The notes: generated by a model from the letters alone, not told the origin. A stretch of 35,753 nucleotides of DNA from Elusimicrobiota bacterium (GCA_003557485.1 PWOI01000029.1:1-35753); one strand, 5' to 3'; shown: positions 2,097 through 18,914, counted from the stretch's first letter. Program-made: numbers and translations.

Positions 2097-3407
2097 ATGA
2101 AATTCAGAAAAATAAATTTTTTAATATTTGCGATATTGTTCTTAACGGTTTTTGAGGGGCGGTCCTCTGTTACTTATTTCGGCGATATGCGGCCGGGCGG
2201 TTTTATAGTAGCGCGGTCTTCAGGGATAAAAAGCGCAGTTTTTAATGGGTCAGAAATACGGACAGACGGAAAATATGTAACAGTGGGGTTTGATAGAGAC
2301 GACAAAGGATCCCGCCGCCTTGAACTGATTTTTGAGGATGGAAGCATAGAAACAAAGACCATAAACCTACCGGAGAGAGAATATGTCATTCAGCATGTAC
2401 GGGGGCTTCAGGAGGAGCATGTCACACCGAGAGCCGAGCATGCTGCCAGGATAAGCAGAGAACGAGAAATCCTTAGGAACGCCATTGAAAAGGCAGGCCG
2501 TAAAGAAAAGGCCTATTTTTCTTCCGGCATAATGCGTCCCGTGGAAGGCGGCCGTATTACAAGTGTTTTTGGAAGCCAGAGGATACTTAACGGCGTTCCC
2601 GGAAGCCCTCACAACGGGATAGACATAGCTCTTCCCGAAGGGTCTCCAGTGCGCGCAATGTCCGATGGTAAGGTTATTCTGGCTGATGATTTCTTTTTTG
2701 CTGGAAAATATGTGATGATTGCTCACGGCCAGGGCCTCATTAGTTTCTATATGCATCTTTCAAAAGTAGAAGTCGTTCCGGGCCAGAGGGTTTACAAGGG
2801 AGATAAAATAGGGGAAGTCGGAATGACGGGCCGCGCTACAGGGCCTCATCTTCACTGGGGAGTGCAGTGGAACAGAAGCCGCATTGATCCGGCTCTGCTT
2901 CTTAATACCGGTATAGGCCTTGAAAGCAGTCATTTTATAATGGTAAGCGTGGGAGAACAGAAGTTGTACCTCTATAGTGACGGTGAACTTGTAAACTCCT
3001 ATCCGGTATCAACTTCCCGCTACGGAACAGGCAATAAATCCGGATCCTATAAACCCCCTCCGGGGCTTCACAGGGTAGCCCGCAAGATAGGTGACGGTGA
3101 GCCCGCCGGCACAGTTTTCCGGGGCAGGGTAAGAACAGGTGAGATAACCGAAATATACTATGACGGCAGAACTTCTGAAGGAGATTACATTCTTACAAGG
3201 ATACTGAGACTGGAAGGGCTGGAACCCGGAATAAATAAGGGTGAGGGTATAGATTCCTACAGCAGGTTTATTTATATACACGGGACCAAGGAGGAAGGTC
3301 TTATCGGCCAGCCTGTATCCTCCGGATGCGTAAGAATGAGAAATAAAGATGTAATAGAACTATTTGATATTGTAGAAGAGGGGACTTTGGTAGAAATAAT
3401 ACCATAG
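2097..3407 (+). CDS. Secreted M23 (LytM-type) metallopeptidase fused to a C-terminal YkuD L,D-transpeptidase domain
   Basis: N-terminal signal peptide; M23 motifs HNGIDIA and GPHLHWGV; YkuD signature YIHGT...IGQPVSSGCVRM. Confidence 0.9.
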   Translation: MKFRKINFLIFAILFLTVFEGRSSVTYFGDMRPGGFIVARSSGIKSAVFNGSEIRTDGKYVTVGFDRDDKGSRRLELIFEDGSIETKTINLPEREYVIQHVRGLQEEHVTPRAEHAARISREREILRNAIEKAGRKEKAYFSSGIMRPVEGGRITSVFGSQRILNGVPGSPHNGIDIALPEGSPVRAMSDGKVILADDFFFAGKYVMIAHGQGLISFYMHLSKVEVVPGQRVYKGDKIGEVGMTGRATGPHLHWGVQWNRSRIDPALLLNTGIGLESSHFIMVSVGEQKLYLYSDGELVNSYPVSTSRYGTGNKSGSYKPPPGLHRVARKIGDGEPAGTVFRGRVRTGEITEIYYDGRTSEGDYILTRILRLEGLEPGINKGEGIDSYSRFIYIHGTKEEGLIGQPVSSGCVRMRNKDVIELFDIVEEGTLVEIIP

Positions 3408-4843: not shown

Positions 4844-5761
4844 ATGTTTCAAGCAGCTGATTTTGATATAACGGATGGTTTTAACGAGTTTCTGAAAAGT
4901 GCGGTAGAGAATCTTCCGGCGGTTTTCTCTACCATAATTATACTGGTTTTAATTACTCTTGCATTGAAAGTTATTCTTCGCAGGACCGAACATTATTTAA
5001 TAAATAAAACCAAGTGCAGGGCCAAATCTCCGGGCGAATATGAAAAAAGAGTAAATACTTTGACGGGGGTTTTAAATAAATTTATTTATATAATTATATG
5101 GGCTGCCGGACTTACAATTATGGTCGCCCGGCTCGGTATGAATATAGCGCCTCTTGTAGCCCTTGCAGGAGTCTTCGGGATTGCTATCGGATTTGGCGCT
5201 CAGAGCCTTGTACAGGACATAATAAACGGAATTTTAATACTTTTTGAAAACCAGGTGCGAGTTGGAGATGTTGCAGCAATAAACGGAACGAGGGGCCTGG
5301 TTGAGGCTATAAACTGGCGGACAATAATTCTCAGGGATGTTCAGGGAGCCGTACATATTTTTTCAAACGGGTCAATAAAATCCCTTTCTAACCTTACAAA
5401 AGAATGGTCTGCCTTTGTTTTTGATATAGGGGTTGCATACAAAGAGGACGTGGACAATGTTATTTCGGTTATCAGGGAAGTTGCTGACGGACTAGAGCAG
5501 GATGAAGAATTTGGCAAAAAAATAATAGAGCCCGTGGAGGTTTTCGGCCTTGATAAATTTGACAACTCTGCGATTGTAGTAAAGGGAAGAATAAAGACCC
5601 TTCCCCGCCAGCAGAGGCCTGTTGGCAGGGAATTCAACCGGAGAATAAAAATAGCTTTCGATGAAAAAGGAATAACAATACCGTTTCCGCACCTTAGAAT
5701 TTATACGGGTCCTCCTTCAGACCCTCTAGAAGTTCTTTTAAAGGACGAGGGTTCAAAGTGA
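4844..5761 (+). CDS. MscS-family small-conductance mechanosensitive channel (copy 1)
   Basis: TM helices followed by [41 protein letters not shown], the MscS pore/beta-domain signature. Confidence 0.92.
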   Translation: MFQAADFDITDGFNEFLKSAVENLPAVFSTIIILVLITLALKVILRRTEHYLINKTKCRAKSPGEYEKRVNTLTGVLNKFIYIIIWAAGLTIMVARLGMNIAPLVALAGVFGIAIGFGAQSLVQDIINGILILFENQVRVGDVAAINGTRGLVEAINWRTIILRDVQGAVHIFSNGSIKSLSNLTKEWSAFVFDIGVAYKEDVDNVISVIREVADGLEQDEEFGKKIIEPVEVFGLDKFDNSAIVVKGRIKTLPRQQRPVGREFNRRIKIAFDEKGITIPFPHLRIYTGPPSDPLEVLLKDEGSK

Positions 5762-5821
5762 AAGCAATGGCTGAAGGACTTTTCGTTGATATGGTTAAAG
5801 CGATCTAACTAGGAGTAAAAA

Positions 5822-6739
5822 ATGGCAGAATACGAATTAACTCAAAGCATAGCGGAGTTTTTTAGAGGAATTGCAGAGAAAATACCGGGATTTCTGGTGA
5901 TTTTTCTTGTTTTCATATTGCTTACTTTTGCAGTTAAACTTATACTCTGGCGGTTTGAATCCTATGTTATTGACCGGCTTAAGAAAAAGGGCGCCTTGCA
6001 GGCGGAAGCAGAAAAAAGAGTAAACACGGTAACCGGTGTTTTCAATAAATTTATATATGTTATACTGTGGATAGTAGGTTTCATAGTTATTCTAGGCCAT
6101 TTTGGTGTTTCAACCAGCCCGCTGGTCGCTGCGGTAGGTGTTCTGGGTCTTGCTTTCAGTTTCGGAGCACAGAGCCTTGTCAAGGATATTATAAACGGAC
6201 TATTTATCATTATTGAGAACCAGGTCAGGGTGGGAGATGTTGCAATAATAAACGGTACCGGCGGCTTTATTGAGGCAATAAATCTCCGGACAATAATATC
6301 GCGCGACCTCACCGGGACAGTTCACGTTTTTCCAAACGGTTCCATCGACACTATAGCCAACCTTACCAAAGAATGGTCTGCTTTTGTTTTTGATGTTGGC
6401 GTTGCCTATAAGGAAGATGTAGACAATGTAATTTCCGTAATAAAGGAGGTTGCCGAAGGGCTGCGTAACGATGAAGAGTTCGGGGAAAAAATAAAGGAGC
6501 CTGCGGAGGTTTTCGGGCTGGATCAGTTCGGTGATTCGGCAATAGTAATAAAAGGAAGAATAAAAACTTTTCCGCTGCAGCAGTGGGCTGTTGCCAGAGA
6601 GTTTAACCGAAGGATAAAGATGGAGTTTGACAGGCGCGGGATAACCATACCTTTCCCGCACAGGAGGGTTTACCTTGGCAAGCCGTCAGACCCTCTGGAA
6701 GTCCTGTTGAAAAAGAACAAGGAAGAAGGAAAAAAATGA
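5822..6739 (+). CDS. MscS-family small-conductance mechanosensitive channel (copy 2, tandem paralog)
   Basis: [41 protein letters not shown]. Same length (305 aa) and collinear with copy 1. Confidence 0.92.
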
Positions 6740-8062: not shown

Positions 8063-8764
8063 ATGATAAAATATGTTGTCGCAATTTTAATTCTTACCTT
8101 TCTTCCCTTTTCACAGGGTTGTGAGGGAGAAAACGTTTTTTCGGGGTTTCACAAATCAGGAACCGACACTTCAACCGGTGCCCGCCTTGCCGATGCAAGA
8201 AAGGCTCTTCGCGACGGAAATTACAAAGAAGCTCTTAAAATATACGAGGAGATTCTTGAGCAAGATCCCAGAAATTCCGAAGCTCTTTACGGGAAAGCGG
8301 CGGCCGAGCTTAGAGCTGCAGGCCTGGACCTGCGCCATATTTTCGATACCCTGCTGGACTTAGATGATGACGATGATGACGGTGAAATAGATATAATAGA
8401 CGAGCTTTTCGGTGGCCTGGGACTTAAAAATGTAGCCGATGCCACGGCCGAGTCCGTAAAAGATCTTAAAAAAATAGCTGACGGCAAAGCTGATGGAACT
8501 ATTCCTCCTGACAATTATGATGTTAATATGAATCTGGCCGTTCTTATAACCCTGAACGCTTTCGTTGATATGATGGTTAAAAATGATGTTGACAATATAG
8601 ATGACCTTGAAAATGAAATAGACGAGGGTGAGAGAAATAGCATTGTTGACAAAATTAAAGATGCAAAAAAATATGCTAAAGTTGCAGGCGGCGCAATGGG
8701 CAAAGATATAGTAGAAGCTTTTGATAATCTTATTGAGCAAATTGAAAAATGGAAACTCTCGTAA
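8063..8764 (+). CDS. Secreted/lipoprotein-like TPR-containing protein with acidic EF-hand-like loop
   Basis: N-terminus MIKYVVAILILTFLPFSQGC; TPR-like ARKALRDGNYKEALKIYEEILEQDPRNSEALYGKAAA; acidic DDDDDDGEIDIID segment. Confidence 0.7.
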   Translation: MIKYVVAILILTFLPFSQGCEGENVFSGFHKSGTDTSTGARLADARKALRDGNYKEALKIYEEILEQDPRNSEALYGKAAAELRAAGLDLRHIFDTLLDLDDDDDDGEIDIIDELFGGLGLKNVADATAESVKDLKKIADGKADGTIPPDNYDVNMNLAVLITLNAFVDMMVKNDVDNIDDLENEIDEGERNSIVDKIKDAKKYAKVAGGAMGKDIVEAFDNLIEQIEKWKLS

Positions 8765-8765
8765 A

Positions 8766-9908
8766 ATGATAAATAAACAGGTGACATCAACCCTGTTTGT
8801 CTTTTCGTTTCTTTTTTTTGTTACGATAGAGTCTGTATCTGCGCCTATAAACATAGAGGGCGTTGAAAACCTGGGGATGGGGGGCGTGGGGACTGCCGTA
8901 AACAGCCCGAAAGCCGTTCTTTATAATCCGGCTCTTCTGGGTCTTCGGGAAGGTTTCAAAATAACCGTTATCGATATTCCCATCACTATATCCCACGATA
9001 TCGTAAAAACTGCTATGTTTATCTATAAAAATATGGATGAGCTTATGGATAATGATGACTGGGATGAACTTGATGAGGATTTAAGGGACGATATAATTGA
9101 CCTGGCTCTCTATGATTTCAGGATTAACATAGGAATGCTTGCTCCTAACGTTTCAGCCGGCCCTTACCCTCTATATACGGGCGTGCGCTGGTGGGATATG
9201 TGGTGGGGGTTGGGTTTGTACAATGAGAATTACATATCTTTTTCTCTTGACGAAGGGATACTGATTCCGACATTTGACCTTAAGGCCCAGGCTGATGCCG
9301 TGGTTCACTTGCCGTTTGCATTCAGGGTCCAGCACCTTCCTTACAGGCTTCCGGGACAGCTTTATTCCGGTTTTGCCGTCAAATATATGATGAGGACCAG
9401 GGTGGAAAAAACAAGACGCAGTATAATGGAAATAGAAGAAGTTATGGATGAACTTGAAGATCAGGATTTTGAGCCGGGAACCGGATTGGGTTTTGATCTT
9501 GGTTTATACTACGATATATCTCCGAAATGGAGCATAGCGTTTGCTGTCAGGGACTTTCTGGGGTCAACTATAGAGTATCCGGACGGTGAAAAGGACGAGA
9601 TATCCGCCCGGATAGATTTAGGTGCAGAGTATACCCCTCACAGTAGAATTGAACTTGCTGCAGACCTCAGGGATATTAAATTCGATGACTTTACCGGTGC
9701 TTCTTTTTTCACCAAACTGCATCTGGGGTGCCAATTCCACCTGACAAGAATTTTGAAGCTGCGCGGCGGATTGTACCAGGGCTATCCTACATTCGGTTTC
9801 GGTATAGGCGGAGCGATAAACTATGCATTTTACGGGCGTGAACTCGGCCGATATGCAGGAGATGATCCCCAGTTGAGTCACACCCTGGCATTTGCTCTTA
9901 GATTCTAA
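8766..9908 (+). CDS. Outer-membrane beta-barrel protein, PorV/UPF0164/FadL-like
   Basis: Signal peptide, then ENLGMGGVGTAVNSPKAVLYNPALLGL (typical start of PorV/FadL-like barrels), alternating beta-strand pattern and C-terminal LAFALRF. ATG 8766 follows the 8764 stop and is preferred to the listed 8721 start. Confidence 0.7.
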   Translation: MINKQVTSTLFVFSFLFFVTIESVSAPINIEGVENLGMGGVGTAVNSPKAVLYNPALLGLREGFKITVIDIPITISHDIVKTAMFIYKNMDELMDNDDWDELDEDLRDDIIDLALYDFRINIGMLAPNVSAGPYPLYTGVRWWDMWWGLGLYNENYISFSLDEGILIPTFDLKAQADAVVHLPFAFRVQHLPYRLPGQLYSGFAVKYMMRTRVEKTRRSIMEIEEVMDELEDQDFEPGTGLGFDLGLYYDISPKWSIAFAVRDFLGSTIEYPDGEKDEISARIDLGAEYTPHSRIELAADLRDIKFDDFTGASFFTKLHLGCQFHLTRILKLRGGLYQGYPTFGFGIGGAINYAFYGRELGRYAGDDPQLSHTLAFALRF

Positions 9909-10990
9909 AAAATACGGGCGTTTTTCATCATAGCCACGCTTATAAGAAGAAATATTATGTTTGCCGACCATGCAGCCAGCATGGGAGACAAAATCCCACC
10001 GACCCCCATAGCGCGGCCTACCGTTATTGCTCCCCAGTAGATGAAAGCTATAAGAAGGGCGATAAAGAATCCAGCAGTCCTGCTTTTCATTCCTCCCCAT
10101 AGTGCTAGCGGTATTCCGAGTATTAGTATTATTGTGTTTGAAAATGGAAAAGATATCTTATGATGCAGTATAACGCGGTGCCTTCTTGAAGATAGCCCTC
10201 CTTTTTCAATTCTTCGGGTATGCCTGAGCAGTTCAATAAAACCCATGCTTTCAGGGTTTTCTTCGGCTTTTTCGAAGTTTACAGGGGTTTCAGGAAGATC
10301 AGTGTGTATTTTTTCAAATTCCATAAACGAAATGGATTGACCGTCATCAGGAGAAAAATCTCTTAAGGTTCCATTATAAAATTCCCATGACCCGTCAGTA
10401 TATACAGCGCGTTCGGCAGTCATTCTGGAAATTTCTCTGGTTGTACCTTTAAGGAATTCTATCATTTTCACTCCATAAAGCGTATTTTCTGAGAGCTTCT
10501 CTATGAAGTAAAAGCGGTCCCCTGCAGCGGCATAGGAGAAGTTTTTTCTTGTGTCGTCAGGCTCACGGGGGTCTCTTCCTCTTATAATACGGAAAAGATT
10601 GTCTGCTTTTCTGTTGGCTGGCGGAACAACCGTTTCGTTTATAATAAGAGAAGAAATGCTTATAAGAATAGAAATTAATATAAGGGGTTTAAGGGCTTTA
10701 AGTATGCTTATTCCGGAACTTCCTATAGCGGTTATTTCACCGTGCCTTTTCAGGGATCCCAGGGAGAAAAGAACTGCAAGAAGAGCAGCCACCGGCATAA
10801 CCATTACAAACCAGTCAGGTATCCTGTTTAAAAAATAGACCGCAAGCATATCTATAGGCGGTTTCTGATCAAGAAATGTATGCATATAATCGAAAAAGTG
10901 CGTTACAATCATAAGGATTAGAAAAGCAATTAGAGCTGCGAAGAACGGCTTGAGAAAAGAATAGGCCAGATATTTCTGTATCAGCTTCAC
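9905..10990 (-). CDS. lptG: LptF/LptG-family permease (LptG-like)
   Basis: YjgP/YjgQ architecture: KYLAYSFLKPF...PVAALLAVLFSLGSLKRHGEITAIGSSGISILKALKP. Confidence 0.85.
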   Translation of the reverse strand: MKLIQKYLAYSFLKPFFAALIAFLILMIVTHFFDYMHTFLDQKPPIDMLAVYFLNRIPDWFVMVMPVAALLAVLFSLGSLKRHGEITAIGSSGISILKALKPLILISILISISSLIINETVVPPANRKADNLFRIIRGRDPREPDDTRKNFSYAAAGDRFYFIEKLSENTLYGVKMIEFLKGTTREISRMTAERAVYTDGSWEFYNGTLRDFSPDDGQSISFMEFEKIHTDLPETPVNFEKAEENPESMGFIELLRHTRRIEKGGLSSRRHRVILHHKISFPFSNTIILILGIPLALWGGMKSRTAGFFIALLIAFIYWGAITVGRAMGVGGILSPMLAAWSANIIFLLISVAMMKNARIF

Positions 10991-12078
10991 CGGTTAAAAC
11001 TTACCGTGATCATTACGGCTCCCAGTCCACCCATTAGAAAATTAGGGAGCCACACTCCAAGCCAGGGCGCTATATCACCGTTAAATGCAAGCTTAATTCC
11101 ACCTGTCATAAGAAAATAATATATAGCAATAACGGCCAGACTTATTCCGATACCTATTGTTTTTCCTTTAACTTCTGCCCTTAGCCCCAATGGTATACCG
11201 CATAACATCAGTGCAAGTGCCGCTCCTGCAAGCGCGCCGCGAATATGCAGGTGTGCGGAAACTGTATTAGTAGGCAGTCCTCTTTCCTCAAGCCTGTTAA
11301 TTTCCTCTTTCATTTCAAAGTAACTTTTAGATTCAAGATTTTTACTCACAGTTATATCTTCATCGCTTCTGTGTATAGTTATTGAGTATTCTTGGAATTC
11401 GATACTGCTTAATATTTCGGGCCTGTCTGGGGGTTGGTGTCGGATAAACCCTTCATAAAGCATTAAAACAAGGGAGTTGTCTTTTTCGGTACTCCATATT
11501 CCTCTTCTCGCCTCAATAAACATTTCAGGTTCATCGTTGTCGGCCGGTTTGTTAATCATAACCTCCCTTAGTGATTGTTCTCTGTGATTAACAGAGTGTG
11601 CCAGAAGAGTATACTCTCCAATTTCAACCTGGGTCCCTTCTTCAATCTGTATGGCAGGTTCCCGGTAAGCCAGGTGAGTAAACCTGTAGCGAAAAGCATA
11701 ATTGCTTGCAGGGGCTACGTGGTAATTAAAAGGAATCATTATAAGAGCTATAACAAATGCGGCCCCTATAGCAGGTTTTATGATAGGAAGTATAGAGCTG
11801 CCGGAAGTTCGAATTGCCGTTATTTCTCTGTCGGAAGCCATTTTGCCGAATGTTATGACGCTTGCAGCAGCAACTGCCATGGGTACCGTAAGAACCAGTA
11901 TTGTGGGTAGGGAATAGAGCAGGAGTATTAATATTTCACCTGCTCCGACGCCTTTTGTTACAACAATCTCAACCAGCTGGAAAAGCCTTTCCATTATAAG
12001 TATAAAAGAGAAAAGCAGCAGGCTGATTGCCAGAGTAGGCAAAAACATTTTTAAAGTATAAGCAGTTAATATTTTCAT
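10987..12078 (-). CDS. lptF: LptF/LptG-family permease (LptF-like)
   Basis: YTLKMFLPTLAISLLLFSFILIMERLFQL...GKMASDREITAIRTSGSSILPIIKP. Overlaps the downstream lptG start by 4 nt. Confidence 0.85.
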   Translation of the reverse strand: MKILTAYTLKMFLPTLAISLLLFSFILIMERLFQLVEIVVTKGVGAGEILILLLYSLPTILVLTVPMAVAAASVITFGKMASDREITAIRTSGSSILPIIKPAIGAAFVIALIMIPFNYHVAPASNYAFRYRFTHLAYREPAIQIEEGTQVEIGEYTLLAHSVNHREQSLREVMINKPADNDEPEMFIEARRGIWSTEKDNSLVLMLYEGFIRHQPPDRPEILSSIEFQEYSITIHRSDEDITVSKNLESKSYFEMKEEINRLEERGLPTNTVSAHLHIRGALAGAALALMLCGIPLGLRAEVKGKTIGIGISLAVIAIYYFLMTGGIKLAFNGDIAPWLGVWLPNFLMGGLGAVMITVSFNR

Positions 12079-12147
12079 GTTTTAAAATAAAGTTTCATTC
12101 TTGGAAGATGCGGGAATTTTTATCCGAATATATTTAATATTTTGATA

Positions 12148-12705
12148 TTAAAAATCCGTAAAAATTTCAGAAGGACCTTTAATGAGAAGCAATATACTCC
12201 CTTCACCTCTTAATATTGCAAAAAGAAAAATAGTTTCTTTATCTTTTTTTAATCTAACTGAGCGCGCATCTCCAGAGATTAGTAATTCAGAAAAATTTTT
12301 AAATACTTCAGTTGTTTCTGTAGATATCTTTTCTGCAGTTGCGCGCATTATTTTTTCTATACTATTTATGTTAAATTCCTCTACCTTCCAGTGTTGTTTA
12401 TGAAAATAATCAGAGAACTCTCTTAGGGTTTCTTCTGAAGGCTTACCGGAGGTTACAATTGTTATGGAGCCTTTTCCCTCCAGAAGCTCTATATTGTAAG
12501 CTTTGTCAGCATAATTTTCGGGTATATCAACATCAACTATATGGTCAGTTCCGCTTAAAACAGCAATAGGGGGATGAAAATTACTGAGATTTTCAAATAT
12601 ATCATATACCGCTACAATAAGAATAATCAAAAATAATATTAGCGCTAATATGGCTAGCAATAATTTTTTCTTCTTATTTTGATTGTGTTCTCTAGTATTA
12701 CTCAT
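12148..12705 (-). CDS. Hypothetical membrane-anchored protein
   Basis: 185-aa ORF with charged N-terminus and one TM helix (KKKLLLAILALILFLIILIVAVYDIF), then a soluble domain. No family recognised. Confidence 0.6.
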   Translation of the reverse strand: MSNTREHNQNKKKKLLLAILALILFLIILIVAVYDIFENLSNFHPPIAVLSGTDHIVDVDIPENYADKAYNIELLEGKGSITIVTSGKPSEETLREFSDYFHKQHWKVEEFNINSIEKIMRATAEKISTETTEVFKNFSELLISGDARSVRLKKDKETIFLFAILRGEGSILLLIKGPSEIFTDF

Positions 12706-12919
12706 TTTTTTATTTATCTTTCTAATTATATTTGTAAGTATACTTAAATATAGCTAAAATCACAAAAAAAACATATTTATGTAAACACATAATTAGGTTA
12801 AGTAAGAGTAAAATGAATTAGTATAAATATATGATTTGAAATTATGACTCTACTTCAATTATAATTTATAATCAGAATGTAAAATTTTCTTTTGTGCTTT
12901 TTCCGGTTGTATTCAAAAT

Positions 12920-12994
12920 ATCCGGCTAGGCAAACCAAAGAAATCCCTTAATGCAAAGAGTAGGCGAAAGTGTAATAAAGATAGGCAGGATTGT
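12920..12994 (+). promoter_or_regulatory. Possible structured leader upstream of the SprA-like gene, with words reminiscent of a GEMM-I (c-di-GMP-I) riboswitch
   Basis: Reads GGCAAACC..AAAGAAA..UGCAAAG...GGCAGGAUUGUU. GGCAA can pair with the terminal UUGUU (2 GU pairs), which would cover the SD/UUG start. The expected tetraloop hairpin between GGCAAACC and GCAAAG is not evident, so this is weak. Confidence 0.2.
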
Positions 12995-15900
12995 TAATTA
13001 AAATAAAATTTATAAAAAAAAATCTGCAAGCGTTTTTATGTGTTTATGCGCTGTTTGTATTTATACCGTCAGGTTTGAAGGCTCTTAATCTTATGGATGA
13101 TGATGCACTTGACTATTTTATCAATGAAGAGATCGAAAGAGAAGAAATTGATGATTTTGAAAGGGCTATAGATATTGATAATCTTGAGTTTGACCGCGAG
13201 CTTTTTGACAGGATAAGGAGAGAAAAAGATGAGGATATATATGTCAGTCCGGAGATTGATGATGTATTTGATTTAATTGAAGCGGATCCGGACGACCCTC
13301 CTCTTTTAGAATATCCTCCGGTAATGCCTGACCTTCCTTATGAGGCGCGCCTTCAGATAACCGGCCGTAAATCAATAGCCCTTAAAACGGGTCATTCCTT
13401 CTGGCTGGGTGATGAAGAAGAAAGAACACTTACCGGTAACCCCCCCGGGCTCTTGCGGGGATTTGAAATGGATCAGGAACTTAGGGTTCGCATACAGGGG
13501 CAGGTAGGTGACAAGATTACAGTTGACGTGGACTATGATGATACCAAGCCCGCTTACGATGAGTCTGCCCGCCGTATTTCTGTGGTCTACAAGGGAGACC
13601 CGGACGAAATAATACAGGAAGCGGCTTTCGGGGATATAACCCTCACTCTTCCCAGAAAACATTTTATAGGATATTCACGTAGCGTTTTTGGTGCCAGGGT
13701 GAAAGGGCGTTATAGAAACCTTGATTTTATGGCAATTGCCTCCCAGACCAAGGGAAGAACTGAAGTAAAGGAATTTACCGGAGATACAACGTTCACCAGG
13801 AGGGATATAAGGGATATTGACTACATACGTCGCCGGCATTACAGCATAGACGTGGATACCTCTGTAAACCATCTTCCGATAGAACCGGGTTCAGTTGAGG
13901 TCTTTTTAAGGGACGGTGTAAGCGAAACCGGAGTGAAGATGGATGTAAAATATGTTAGCGGAGATACTCATAACGATTACTTTGAGAGACTGGTTCCCGG
14001 AAGAGATTTTACAGTAGATCATCAAACCGGAATTCTGACATTTTCCAGTTCCCTTTCCAGGCACTATATAGCGGCAGTCCGGTTTACCGGCAGCCAGGGC
14101 ACTGTTGGGGAAACGGATCCCGTTATTTTTGCGGATGAGCAGCGTGAGGGAGGAAAGACAGTTACTGAATACGAAAGAAAAAACTTTTACAGCCTTGGCG
14201 CGTCAAGGATATCAAGAGACGATTTTGTCCTTAGGTTTCTTGATACCAACAGAAAACCAGATACTCCGCCCAAGCCCGCATATACCGTTGATTACGATCG
14301 GGGCATACTTGAATTTGACCATAAGATGCCCTTTGACCCTGAAGACAAAAAAGGAATATATGACACTCACAACCCCCAACATAATTATATAATTTATGTG
14401 GAGTTTAAAAGCAGGATACGCCAGTATTTTCTTCGCCCTAATATTGTAAGGGGTAGTGAAAGGATAGTAAAGGACGGCAGGGTGCTGAGCCGGAACACGG
14501 ATTATTTAATAGATTACCCGTCAGGATTTATAACCTTTCTGAGACCCGAAGAAATAGATGAAACCACTACAATAAGGGCGACCTATGAGTATATGCCTTT
14601 TGGTATAGCTCAGCAGGAAACACTTGTAGGATTGCGGGCTGATTACCGGTTCTCCCGCAATCTTTCAATGGGGGGAACTCTGCTCTATAATTTTGCGGCA
14701 TCCGAGCGTGAAATACCCAGGGTAGGCCAGACTCCGCAGAGCGCCCTTGTCCTTGGAAGCAATATCGACCTGACAATACCTACAGGCCGCTATAATCCTT
14801 TTCCTACGCGTATAAGCGCCGAGGTTGCCCGGAGTGAAATGAATCCGAATACGATAGGTAAAGCAATGATAGATGATATGGACGGGATACGGATAACCCG
14901 CAGCGTATCGCTGAGAAAAGATCAGTGGCAGATAGCGGCAACGCCATCAGAAAGGGTAGCCAGTCCTTCCTGGATAGATCTGGATGAAGATGATGATAAA
15001 TACCTCAGCGACATAAACCCCAATGTTTCCAGGGATGAAGATGAGAAAGTATGGATCCTTGAGGTTGATTATGATATTCCCGCGACAGACAAGGGCTGGG
15101 GAAGCGATCTTGAAGTTTCAATTGTTAACCCTATCTCAAGGACCGGAATAGACATCGGAGATATGGATAAAATACAGCTCTGGTTTAAAGGCGACTTAAC
15201 CGATGCCGAACTGGATATTGATTTCGGGGTTATTTCGGAAGACGCTGACCGGACGGGAGTTATAAAACCGCATCCTGATAAGATTGAAGACAGCAGAATA
15301 GAAGGGTGGCAGTATGTTTATCCGGGGACCGCCCCTATAAGAAGGAATAAGGGCTGGAATTACGACTATGTAGGGGGTGGAGTTTTTACTATCGGAGCCG
15401 ATAACGGCAGGATAGATACAAACGATCTGGACAGAGACGGGATACTGGATAGAGTGGAAAATGTAGCAACCTTTGAGCAGGGACCCCTTTCGTCCGATAA
15501 ATGGAGACGCCTTGAATTTGATATAGGAGAGTTAGGCGAAGGAGAGAGGGCTAATTTAAGATTTGTAAAACATGTCCGTATTACTGTAAGAAATAAAAGC
15601 GGAGCAAGAAACAGGGGTAAATTTTACATAGCGAAACTTGAAGCCATAGGGAACCACTGGGAAGCCTCGGATGTTCATACCGATGACTCTTTCAGGGTTC
15701 TGGACGTAAACACTTTTGATAACCCCGATTACCGCAGGAATTCCCCCGAAGACGAAGATATCTATAAGGACATATACTCAAAAGTCGGAGGAAGGGATGA
15801 TATAAGGGAGGGAGCGCTTGAACTTAACTATGAACTGGAAAAAACTACTTCAGTATATGCATATATGGAGTTTCCTGCGGCACTGGACTTTTCCAGGCAT

Positions 15901-18180
15901 AAAAAACTGGAGTTTCTACTCTATGGAAAAGATGCGGGACAGGATGCCGTTTTCTTTATAGAATTCGGCGCCGGCGACAATTTTTACCGAAAAGAATATA
16001 AAATAAGCGATTATGATTTTGACAGCAGTGGATGGGAAAAATTTACTATTTCCCTCTCTGAAAAGAATCTTGCAGAGCTTGAAAAAACAGGAACTCCTTC
16101 TATTTCTAATGTAAGGGAAATAAGAGTGGGTATCAGAAATGACAGTGCCGGAAAGCTGGAAGGTAAAGTCTGGGTAAATGTTATCCACCTTTCGGATTCT
16201 ATTAAGCAGGTGGGTACCGCAGAGAGGTTCGATTTTTCTTCTACCATTCCGGGGATCCTGGAATACGGTGGGACATACGAACATGTTACAGAGGATTTCC
16301 AGACTATTACCGAGCCGCCCCGGAACCAGGAAATCACGGCCTATTCCGCCAATGCGCGCCTGACTTTGCTTGATTTCCTTCCTGTTCGGGGGCGTTACAG
16401 CCAGCGGGAAACCGTTACGCCCGCTGACCGTATACGGGATGAGGACAGAAACCCTTATATACGGGCCCGGGACGAAGGAAAGGTAGTAAGAAAAGACGGC
16501 AGTCTGGACGCCGATTTAAGGATAAGAAGATTGCCCGATATAGGCGGCCATTATTCCAGAAGTATTGAAAGGTCGGATTTTTCGGGAAGAATAGAGGAAC
16601 TGGAAACTATAAGAGGAAATTTGTCTTATAGCCCGCCCCTTGACGTATTCATAGTGCCCAGAAGTTTGCGCGGAAACGTCCGCAGAACCATAAGAGATAC
16701 TGCCTGGGATGACAGAATAATAGATGAAACAAGGGATTCCAAAAGTGATGGAGGTAAGGAAGACTGGAGCGAAGTAACATATGATTTCGGAGGAAGTTCT
16801 ACTTTCGATATGTTCGGTTTTCTGGATTTCAGGCCGGCTTACAGTAAAAACGTAAAGGACAGAACCTGGGATTTCTATGCAGGCGATTATGAGGGCAAAG
16901 AAAAAACCTGGCCCTGGAGCCGCCGCCAGAAAATTGATATGAATTCCACTTTAACGCTTGCCCGGTGGTTTAGGCCTTCTTTTTCATATGGTATAGATAC
17001 AAACGAAGATTATAATTTTGATACAGTGAATGGCTCTCCGGTTTTTATCGAGAGAAAGGATGTCGACAGAAATTTTGATATAGACAGCCGGGTTAGATTC
17101 GGTGTCAAACATGTAATCCCCGGGTTTGACCCGGTTGAAACCCTTGAGCTTGATCTGAACTACAGGTACGAAAAGGGTGAGAGCTATAAAAATCTTCCCA
17201 GCACGAGAAGTGTTTTTGATAAACTTGACTGGAGGAAAGAAATAGACTCAGATAAAGTGGATTCAGCTACAAAAAGAGACACCAGGAGGTACGGTACTGA
17301 CTGGCGGCCGTTTGATTTTATGAATCTCTCGGGAGACTGGTTGAAAGCTGTGGGAGATATGAGACTGAGAACCAACTACCGTAAAATAAATTCCTTTCGG
17401 CTCAGTCAGAATACAATTTACGAAAAGGACTCACTGACCTGGCCTGACCTGACCGCAGATTTCGGCCGTTTGCCGCGGCTGCCCTATGCAGGCAGGACAA
17501 TAACAGAGATAGATTTGAGGGGGACATACACTTTGGCTACCGATTTAGAGTACTCATACAGTGATGGAATAGACAGGGATGATGATATCCATGGTATTTC
17601 TGAAGAATGGAGGAGAAGGTATGGTGTTAATTCACGGTTTAAAATAAGGGGTAGATACGATTCTCTTCTGGATTATACTTCCGAATCAGCAGAAAAGATA
17701 GACCTTCGCGATTTGAATCCCTGGGACTGGCGTGACGAAAGAAGAACTTACAGCGGGCAGATAAAAGTTGAATTAAGACGATACTGGGACGTTATAGCCC
17801 GCTTCAGCCATTCTCGTCATGAAAGAGTTTCCTACCCTGATATCTTGCGGACCGACTCACGTAGTTACAGCCCGAGTTTAAGTTTCCGGGCAGTAATAGA
17901 TTTACCCGATATCGTAAATGTCCCTCTTTTTGGAGATGTGGCTGCCGGGAACCGTCTCAGGCTGGATGCTGATCTCAAAGCTGACTTTGCAAGGAGTGAG
18001 CTTGATATTTACCGGACAAATACAAACAGTTATACCTTCAACTGTACAGGTCAGCTGGATGTAGCGGCTAATATGCGAGGAAGCTTCGGGTTTGGAGCGC
18101 AGTATGTGCATAATATAGAGCGCTACGCTAACAGCTACGCCGGAATAAACCTCCGCGCAGAAGTAGTAATAACCTTTTAA
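12991..18180 (+). CDS. SprA-like giant outer-membrane protein (T9SS translocon SprA/Sov family homolog)
   Basis: 1729 aa, TTG start with upstream AGGCAGGA, signal peptide. SprA-family-like blocks: GQVGDKITVDVDYDDTKPAYDESARRISVVYKGDPDEIIQEAAFGDITLTLPRKHFIGYSRSVFGARVKGRYRNLDFMAIASQTKGRTEVKEF; MPFGIAQQETLVGLRADYRFSRNLSMGGTLLYNF; AMIDDMDGIRITRSVSLRKDQWQIAATP. C-terminus is beta-rich and ends VVITF. Confidence 0.8.
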   Translation: MLIKIKFIKKNLQAFLCVYALFVFIPSGLKALNLMDDDALDYFINEEIEREEIDDFERAIDIDNLEFDRELFDRIRREKDEDIYVSPEIDDVFDLIEADPDDPPLLEYPPVMPDLPYEARLQITGRKSIALKTGHSFWLGDEEERTLTGNPPGLLRGFEMDQELRVRIQGQVGDKITVDVDYDDTKPAYDESARRISVVYKGDPDEIIQEAAFGDITLTLPRKHFIGYSRSVFGARVKGRYRNLDFMAIASQTKGRTEVKEFTGDTTFTRRDIRDIDYIRRRHYSIDVDTSVNHLPIEPGSVEVFLRDGVSETGVKMDVKYVSGDTHNDYFERLVPGRDFTVDHQTGILTFSSSLSRHYIAAVRFTGSQGTVGETDPVIFADEQREGGKTVTEYERKNFYSLGASRISRDDFVLRFLDTNRKPDTPPKPAYTVDYDRGILEFDHKMPFDPEDKKGIYDTHNPQHNYIIYVEFKSRIRQYFLRPNIVRGSERIVKDGRVLSRNTDYLIDYPSGFITFLRPEEIDETTTIRATYEYMPFGIAQQETLVGLRADYRFSRNLSMGGTLLYNFAASEREIPRVGQTPQSALVLGSNIDLTIPTGRYNPFPTRISAEVARSEMNPNTIGKAMIDDMDGIRITRSVSLRKDQWQIAATPSERVASPSWIDLDEDDDKYLSDINPNVSRDEDEKVWILEVDYDIPATDKGWGSDLEVSIVNPISRTGIDIGDMDKIQLWFKGDLTDAELDIDFGVISEDADRTGVIKPHPDKIEDSRIEGWQYVYPGTAPIRRNKGWNYDYVGGGVFTIGADNGRIDTNDLDRDGILDRVENVATFEQGPLSSDKWRRLEFDIGELGEGERANLRFVKHVRITVRNKSGARNRGKFYIAKLEAIGNHWEASDVHTDDSFRVLDVNTFDNPDYRRNSPEDEDIYKDIYSKVGGRDDIREGALELNYELEKTTSVYAYMEFPAALDFSRHKKLEFLLYGKDAGQDAVFFIEFGAGDNFYRKEYKISDYDFDSSGWEKFTISLSEKNLAELEKTGTPSISNVREIRVGIRNDSAGKLEGKVWVNVIHLSDSIKQVGTAERFDFSSTIPGILEYGGTYEHVTEDFQTITEPPRNQEITAYSANARLTLLDFLPVRGRYSQRETVTPADRIRDEDRNPYIRARDEGKVVRKDGSLDADLRIRRLPDIGGHYSRSIERSDFSGRIEELETIRGNLSYSPPLDVFIVPRSLRGNVRRTIRDTAWDDRIIDETRDSKSDGGKEDWSEVTYDFGGSSTFDMFGFLDFRPAYSKNVKDRTWDFYAGDYEGKEKTWPWSRRQKIDMNSTLTLARWFRPSFSYGIDTNEDYNFDTVNGSPVFIERKDVDRNFDIDSRVRFGVKHVIPGFDPVETLELDLNYRYEKGESYKNLPSTRSVFDKLDWRKEIDSDKVDSATKRDTRRYGTDWRPFDFMNLSGDWLKAVGDMRLRTNYRKINSFRLSQNTIYEKDSLTWPDLTADFGRLPRLPYAGRTITEIDLRGTYTLATDLEYSYSDGIDRDDDIHGISEEWRRRYGVNSRFKIRGRYDSLLDYTSESAEKIDLRDLNPWDWRDERRTYSGQIKVELRRYWDVIARFSHSRHERVSYPDILRTDSRSYSPSLSFRAVIDLPDIVNVPLFGDVAAGNRLRLDADLKADFARSELDIYRTNTNSYTFNCTGQLDVAANMRGSFGFGAQYVHNIERYANSYAGINLRAEVVITF

Positions 18181-18191
18181 CCTCTGAGGTG

Positions 18192-18914
18192 ATGAAGGCA
18201 ATATTATTAAATTTATTTTTCCCCGTTAATTGTGCTTCCTGCGGTGGATATGTTAATCTGACTTCAGAATACGGGATATGCAGGGAGTGTGTTTCGGAAA
18301 TTGCACCCGTATACTCATGCGGATGCCGGTTTTGCGGAAGCCCGGTTGACAGCAAAACAGAATTCTGCAGGATATGTGCCGCGAATCAATCTTACATTGA
18401 TGATTTTTATACTGCGTTCTATTATGAAGGGACCGTCAGAAATATTATTAAAAAATATAAGTACGGAAATGCAAGGTATGTTGAGAAACTATTGGTTGAT
18501 TACCTTGTGAATCTTTTTAATAAATATATTCAGGAGAGGGAAAAAAACAGGATTGTAGTTCCGGTTTCTCTTCACCGCAGAAAGCTTAAGGAAAGAGGTT
18601 TTAATCAGTCAGAAGCTCTTGCTGCCAGGCTATCAAAGGCTTTGAGATTGAAAACCGTACCGCGTGCAATCATTCGAACAAGAAATACTGAACCGCAGTA
18701 TACAAAAAACAGGCAGGAACGCTTCAGTAATGTAAAAAATGCATTCAGCGCCAGCCGGAAATTATGTGCCGGAAAAGATATAGTATTACTGGACGATGTA
18801 TCTACAACCGGTGCTACAATACAGCAGGCCGCTGCCGCGCTCAGATCAGCCGGCGCAAAAAGGATTACAGCAGTTACTGTTGCGCACGGCCGTTTAAGAG
18901 ATATACAGGTTTGA
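18192..18914 (+). CDS. comF: ComF family protein / amidophosphoribosyltransferase-like
   Basis: CASCGGY...CRECV...CRFCG...CRIC zinc-ribbon region, KYKYGN, RRKLKERGFNQSEALA, and PRPP loop DIVLLDDVSTTGATIQQAAAAL. ATG 18192 sits after GAGGTG; the listed GTG start at 18189 is inside that SD. Confidence 0.9.
   Translation: MKAILLNLFFPVNCASCGGYVNLTSEYGICRECVSEIAPVYSCGCRFCGSPVDSKTEFCRICAANQSYIDDFYTAFYYEGTVRNIIKKYKYGNARYVEKLLVDYLVNLFNKYIQEREKNRIVVPVSLHRRKLKERGFNQSEALAARLSKALRLKTVPRAIIRTRNTEPQYTKNRQERFSNVKNAFSASRKLCAGKDIVLLDDVSTTGATIQQAAAALRSAGAKRITAVTVAHGRLRDIQV

Follow-up and report, generated by a model that had tools for sequence, protein, structure and literature searches.

The DNA analysed here (the window) is a stretch of 35,753 nucleotides from an Elusimicrobiota bacterium (GCA_003557485.1); it makes up the entire contig C42 of a genome assembled from a metagenome (2.07 Mb, 86.6% complete). 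Several of the gene names used for the window are based on a reading of the sequence together with conserved gene order. On the plus strand, a gene for a TPR lipoprotein of 233 amino acids (8063-8764; TPR_19, 27.6 bits at a cut-off of 25; one clear TPR) is followed, 1 bp past its stop codon, by a gene for a divergent barrel of 380 amino acids (8766-9908) that profile comparison places in the PorV superfamily (FadL fold). The minus strand then carries lptG (9905-10990; PF03739, 6.5e-80; TIGR04408, 225.7 bits), whose stop overlaps that of the barrel gene by 4 bp, the second LPS export permease gene lptF (10987-12078; PF03739, 1.5e-73; TIGR04407, 172 bits), and an open reading frame of 185 amino acids with one apparent TM helix that matches no family above cut-off (12148-12705). 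Back on the plus strand lie the gene for a SprA/Sov-like outer-membrane translocon pore (12991-18180; 1729 amino acids, TTG start codon; TIGR04189 and the SprA entry of the PDB) and a gene for a ComF-like phosphoribosyltransferase (18189-18914; PF00156 and PF18912). The order downstream of sprA is comF, lysS, a LolC-like permease gene, a LolD-like ATPase gene, ilvE, mcsA, mcsB, clpC, and tamB. These coordinates confirm the layout given in the original prediction, which had the TPR gene directly upstream of a PorV/FadL-like barrel gene, and lptF/lptG together with one further open reading frame separating that barrel from a SprA-like gene about 3 kb away (3.1 kb as measured). Elsewhere in the window, a single protein combines M23 endopeptidase and L,D-transpeptidase (YkuD) domains (2097-3407), and two genes for MscS-type channels stand in tandem (4844-6739).

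The relatives that we used for comparison belong to a candidate phylum mostly deposited under 'Elusimicrobia', and those that carry names are mostly deposited as 'Elusimicrobia bacterium'; our sample of the phylum comprised 13 genomes, with the window's own genome (G000) counted in. Homology of the window protein to SprA is far beyond chance, and on sequence grounds its standing as a true SprA homologue is secure. It matches TIGR04189 at 5.4e-59 (199.6 bits at a cut-off of 200), and the solved SprA of F. johnsoniae is recovered at 6.6e-27, along four colinear blocks, with a profile built from 11 relatives; the last third of the protein has no match by sequence. The SprA/Sov outer-membrane pore of a T9SS is represented by a single gene in each of the 13 genomes of the phylum, in G000 by the window gene.

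The cluster around sprA is real and old but modular. As far as the contigs extend, the block lptG-lptF (divergent)-SprA-comF-lysS-lolC-lolD-ilvE-mcsAB-clpC-tamB is conserved within the taxonomic order of the window's genome, and the arrangement lptFG-SprA-ComF recurs across several lineages of different labels. By manual count, lptFG adjoins SprA in 17 of the 32 SprA loci found on genome contigs, and the loci with this arrangement include metagenome-assembled genomes labelled Desantisbacteria, Clostridia, and Elusimicrobia. A comF-like gene directly 3' of sprA was seen in nearly every locus that is long enough: in all genomes of the phylum whose contigs reach that far, and in many other lineages (12991-18914 in the window; L060-L080). 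The TPR and barrel genes stand side by side as a unit in eight of the phylum's genomes. They lie between SAHH and lptG in G000 and L067; G007, G009, and G010 agree with this once contig breaks are allowed for, and the barrel precedes lptG in G008. An apparent separation of the pair from sprA in G007 and G010 was dismissed, since it reflects contig breaks with matching flanks. The complete order SAHH-TPR-barrel-[CTD peptidase]-lptG-lptF-SprA-ComF is present in locus L067, and large parts of it occur in other genomes. Four genomes (G011, G012, G001, G005) keep SprA and have no TPR-barrel pair; in G011, SAHH directly abuts lptG. In family f5 (G002, G003, G004), lptF-lptG is followed by a gene for a CTD protein and another PorV gene, and SprA is encoded elsewhere; in G002 and G004 the CTD protein and PorV genes beside lptFG converge on the TPR-barrel pair. 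Conservation of the neighbourhood across relatives is in this way borne out for lptFG-SprA-ComF and for the TPR-barrel pair; it does not extend to the 12148-12705 open reading frame, which is not part of the module and was ruled out as a conserved partner because in G009, a genome of the same genus, the gap from lptF to SprA measures only about 250 bp. Open reading frames of 310-322 amino acids upstream of sprA in G007 and G012 turned out to encode an IS200-like transposase with a DnaA-type helix-turn-helix; two relatives have such a Y1 transposase inserted in the lptF-sprA gap (L017:2336-3301; L019:15987-16925).

The lipoprotein call for the product of the first gene of the pair is good, since its lipobox cysteine (Cys20) is invariant in nine relatives; a DVNxNL motif is also common to them. 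The structural model of the protein is helical and reasonably confident (pLDDT 78), and its structure matches are to generic TPR folds only. We found no match to SprE, either by sequence or by fold, and a weak one to the PorE model NF052230 that covers the TPR part alone (E 0.017). Like SprE/PorW of the Extended Translocon (PMC10994853), the window protein is a lipoprotein with TPR; with 233 amino acids, one clear TPR, and no SprE match, however, it is not a large multi-TPR lipoprotein related to SprE and was ruled out as PorW/SprE. The suggestion that it might stand in for PorW/SprE therefore falls: this is a small TPR protein of generic type, and the SprA-bearing genomes without the pair lack it. 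PorE, a lipoprotein with TPR, propeller, CPD, and OmpA parts, offers a further parallel in that a TPR lipoprotein is linked to a barrel, as in the window, whereas the window protein has just the TPR part.

From its sequence, the window barrel is a divergent member of the PorV superfamily, one of about 20 in the genome. The PorV/FadL-like character proposed for it stands at the level of the superfamily: hhalign aligns it with the CTD-paired PorV proteins described below over 287 columns (99.5%, E 5e-23), so that homology to PorV/PorQ runs along the barrel. The link to PorV itself is weak, with NF033709 (PorV_fam) scoring 7.8e-11 and 42.1 bits, below the curated cut-off of 90; the best PDB sequence match is PorV (E 0.04). 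The Pfam families DUF5723 and TraF_2 both exceed their own cut-offs on the protein. A Foldseek search with the low-confidence AlphaFold model (pLDDT 63) returned FadL/TodX, PorV, and BamG about equally poorly. The window barrel shares its overall fold with the FadL/TodX channels, yet sequence profiles group it with PorV, not FadL. It has no CTD partner in its own genome, whereas a CTD protein follows the barrel in G007, G008, and L067, and a like order with related barrels is present in L066 and L085. In f5, the window-type barrel bears a CsgG domain.

The protein that occupies the slot between the barrel and lptG in G007, G008, and L067 is CTD-tagged and belongs to the M6 peptidases in G008 and L067, as it does by homology in G007; L078 also has the M6 type. 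In L066, L085, L083, and f5, lptFG has an S8 subtilase beside it. Near lptFG/SprA, we noted CTD peptidases of the M6 or S8 type, by lineage, at L018:691-2373, L067:3936-5525, L066:5061-6833, L083:36-1685, L085:768-2396, and L164:3568-5097. The occurrence of unlike peptidase folds with a shared sorting tail at one and the same locus hints at processing, such as removal of the CTD, and the CTD-tagged peptidase beside lptFG/SprA is a possible functional counterpart of PorU. C25 peptidases occur in five f5 genomes, and in three of these (L196, L197, L198) a C25-CTD protein with PorU/gingipain architecture was confirmed; C25 (the PorU-type sortase with CTD) was not found in the window's genome or taxonomic order. 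The window's genome has neither M6 nor C25, and the CTD-tagged M6 peptidase was rejected as a universal part for the window, its M6 form being found in just G007 and G008 of the 13 genomes.

CTD proteins and PorV-family barrels are abundant throughout the phylum. PorV_fam (NF033709) exceeds its cut-off in all 13 genomes with 9-35 matches per genome, of which 26 fall in the window's genome, where some represent fragments of one gene; the type A sorting domain (TIGR04183) likewise exceeds its cut-off in 13 of 13 genomes, with 5-33 matches each. The two counts correlate across genomes (partial r 0.62 on genome size). For at least 63 of the 150 CTD matches listed, a match to PorV follows on the same strand at a distance of 69-398 bp, mostly 70-180 bp, against an expectation of 0.2; 87 have no PorV behind them among the matches listed, and none of the 150 listed is preceded or faced by a PorV match. 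Viewed from the barrels, with CTDs called by a profile built in this analysis, a CTD protein is encoded immediately 5' of 34 out of 48 PorV entries, 15 of these 34 in the window's genome; the 48 include some duplicates and contig ends. The open reading frames of CTD protein and PorV mostly overlap by a few bases, in an operon-like manner, and the CTD ends a few residues from the stop codon. Moreover, the distances among CTDs correlate with those among PorV proteins within genomes (Mantel r 0.73, p 2e-4), also in the window's genome alone (r 0.69, 15 pairs); part of this co-variation could reflect joint duplication of the two genes and not specificity of binding.

Searched against the PDB, the paired PorV proteins find PorV at 6.8e-27, with the FadL-type TodX as the next family at 3e-4. 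PorV shuttles and type A CTD cargo, two components of a T9SS, were hence both found in the genome, the PorV elsewhere than in the window barrel alone. The label 'type A' is approximate, since the CTDs match FlgD_ig (PF13860) about as well as the T9SS models and also, weakly, type B (CHU_C). Cargo domains are of the surface type (fn3, Kelch, FG-GAP, CBM, sortilin/BNR). Many of the paired PorV proteins have C-terminal periplasmic extensions with TPR, OmpA, CsgG, LysM, or carboxypeptidase-regulatory domains; fusions of PorV-family barrels to periplasmic TPR, CsgG, OmpA, or LysM domains were noted in L118, L101, L120, L117, L160, and L164. On the short contig C14 of G000, locus L154 has a CTD of a style (NPFNPSTTIRYALP) unlike the others and may be contamination from another phylum.

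We weighed three alternatives to the reading given below. The C-terminal Ig-like domains might be FlgD-like domains of general structural use, and the PorV-family barrels next to them might anchor surface proteins independently of SprA; the equally good FlgD_ig matches would fit this, as would the fact that most CTD-PorV pairs have no SprA gene next door. We nonetheless consider it improbable, as the domains sit at the extreme C-terminus and TIGR04183 exceeds its cut-off in every genome of the phylum, all 13 genomes have SprA, T9SS PorV is the solved barrel nearest to the paired ones, and several lineages have CTD peptidases beside lptFG-SprA. Somewhat less remote, though still rather unlikely, is an ordinary but divergent T9SS in which the GldLM motor, the GldKN ring, and SprE have diverged too far for the profiles used and in which PorV, a standard part, has expanded in copy number. 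SprA, PorV, and CTD are each still recognisable, and one family of the phylum has C25-CTD (PorU-like) proteins, as such a system would have it. GldM was found in none of 32 genomes (13 of the phylum and 19 further SprA-bearing ones) and GldL in none of the 13 of the phylum, results that count only as non-detection, since the searches had no T9SS-positive control genome; they weigh against this alternative all the same, given that SprA was found at 5e-59. The cognate pairing of PorV with cargo would, even then, be unlike any described T9SS (PMC12618676).

The third alternative concerns the window pair and is to be taken more seriously than the other two, although the balance tips away from it: the barrel and TPR lipoprotein may be unrelated to SprA and serve as an outer-membrane accessory or as a small-molecule channel of the FadL kind, their proximity to it being inherited gene order. 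TodX/FadL ranks above PorV in Foldseek, DUF5723 and TraF_2 pass their Pfam cut-offs, four genomes have SprA without the pair, and the neighbours lptFG and ComF are housekeeping genes. The fold model behind the Foldseek ranking is of low confidence, however; the barrel matches the CTD-paired PorV proteins by profile-profile comparison, a CTD protein comes after the barrel in relatives (with the same order and related barrels in L066/L085), and the window's genome itself has PorV-TPR fusions. The TPR lipoprotein and barrel would then amount to a two-gene version of the barrel-TPR unit, of the same type as these fusions, and the pair may be a docking or processing unit for CTD proteins because relatives have it beside a CTD-tagged secreted peptidase and lptFG. 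Of the 'minimal translocon-like module' in the original prediction, SprA, the barrel, the TPR-barrel pair, and the conserved lptFG neighbourhood are retained; the notion is too narrow, because SprA persists without the pair and because shuttling probably falls to the some 20 other PorV paralogues of the genome, most of them encoded beside CTD cargo genes outside the window.

Taking the gene content as a whole, we think it probable that the phylum has a T9SS-like translocon with cargo-dedicated PorV shuttles, whose outer-membrane pore is encoded in the window and whose function in secretion we infer. Cargo would pass the inner membrane by Sec, and its CTD would enter the SprA pore; its own dedicated PorV-type shuttle would pull each cargo out via the lateral gate of SprA and hold it on the cell surface. 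The TPR, OmpA, LysM, or CsgG extensions found on many shuttles would anchor these, together with their cargo, to the cell wall. More tentatively, and as a possibility that we would not put on a par with the translocon itself, this may be a T9SS-like system outside the FCB phyla with one PorV shuttle per type-A-like cargo, often anchored to the wall, that dispenses with the GldKLMN motor and ring, for example by employing single-use shuttles instead of a PorV that is extracted by the motor and recycled.

Such an arrangement differs from the known T9SS in distribution and in shuttle logic, because T9SS and CTDs are held to be confined to FCB or Bacteroidota and adjacent cognate shuttles to type B CTDs. 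According to reviews, T9SS genes are absent outside the FCB phyla (PMC11285876) and CTD proteins are restricted to Bacteroidota (PMC10202324), and TXSScan reports T9SS in Bacteroidetes only (PMC4793230); the system described here lies outside these groups. Common to it and to the T9SS of Bacteroidota are SprA in four colinear blocks, PorV-family barrels, and type-A-like CTDs. The latter system, however, uses one PorV for all type A cargo, cognate adjacent shuttles being known for type B CTDs only (PMC12618676), whereas here many PorV paralogues exist, most of them beside a cargo gene; it also has a GldL/GldM motor, of which our control-free searches detected no counterpart here. In Flavobacterium johnsoniae, type B cargo and its cognate PorP/SprF are encoded as cargo gene followed by shuttle gene (PMC12618676), as here, but in our genomes the shuttles are of the PorV family and the CTDs are nearer to type A/FlgD-Ig. 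In five operons of F. johnsoniae, a type B cargo and its shuttle are encoded together with a homologue of PorE (PMC12618676), so that some have a PorE-like wall-binding partner, whereas here the shuttle itself often carries the wall-binding domains. In Bacteroidota, PorE unites TPR, CPD, and OmpA-like domains (PMC12204202), a set that the shuttle extensions resemble, with TPR, OmpA, and CPD fused to PorV proteins. Proteins of this kind are already labelled by family models in many genomes; we found no literature on SprA, PorV, or T9SS in Elusimicrobia in a search that most subscription papers lay outside.

A cognate PorV-cargo system outside the FCB phyla would, if true, recast the origin of the T9SS, with translocon and shuttle preceding the motor. 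The need for a motor in export through SprA would become directly testable, and the phylum offers many natural CTD-shuttle pairs with which cargo recognition can be tested.
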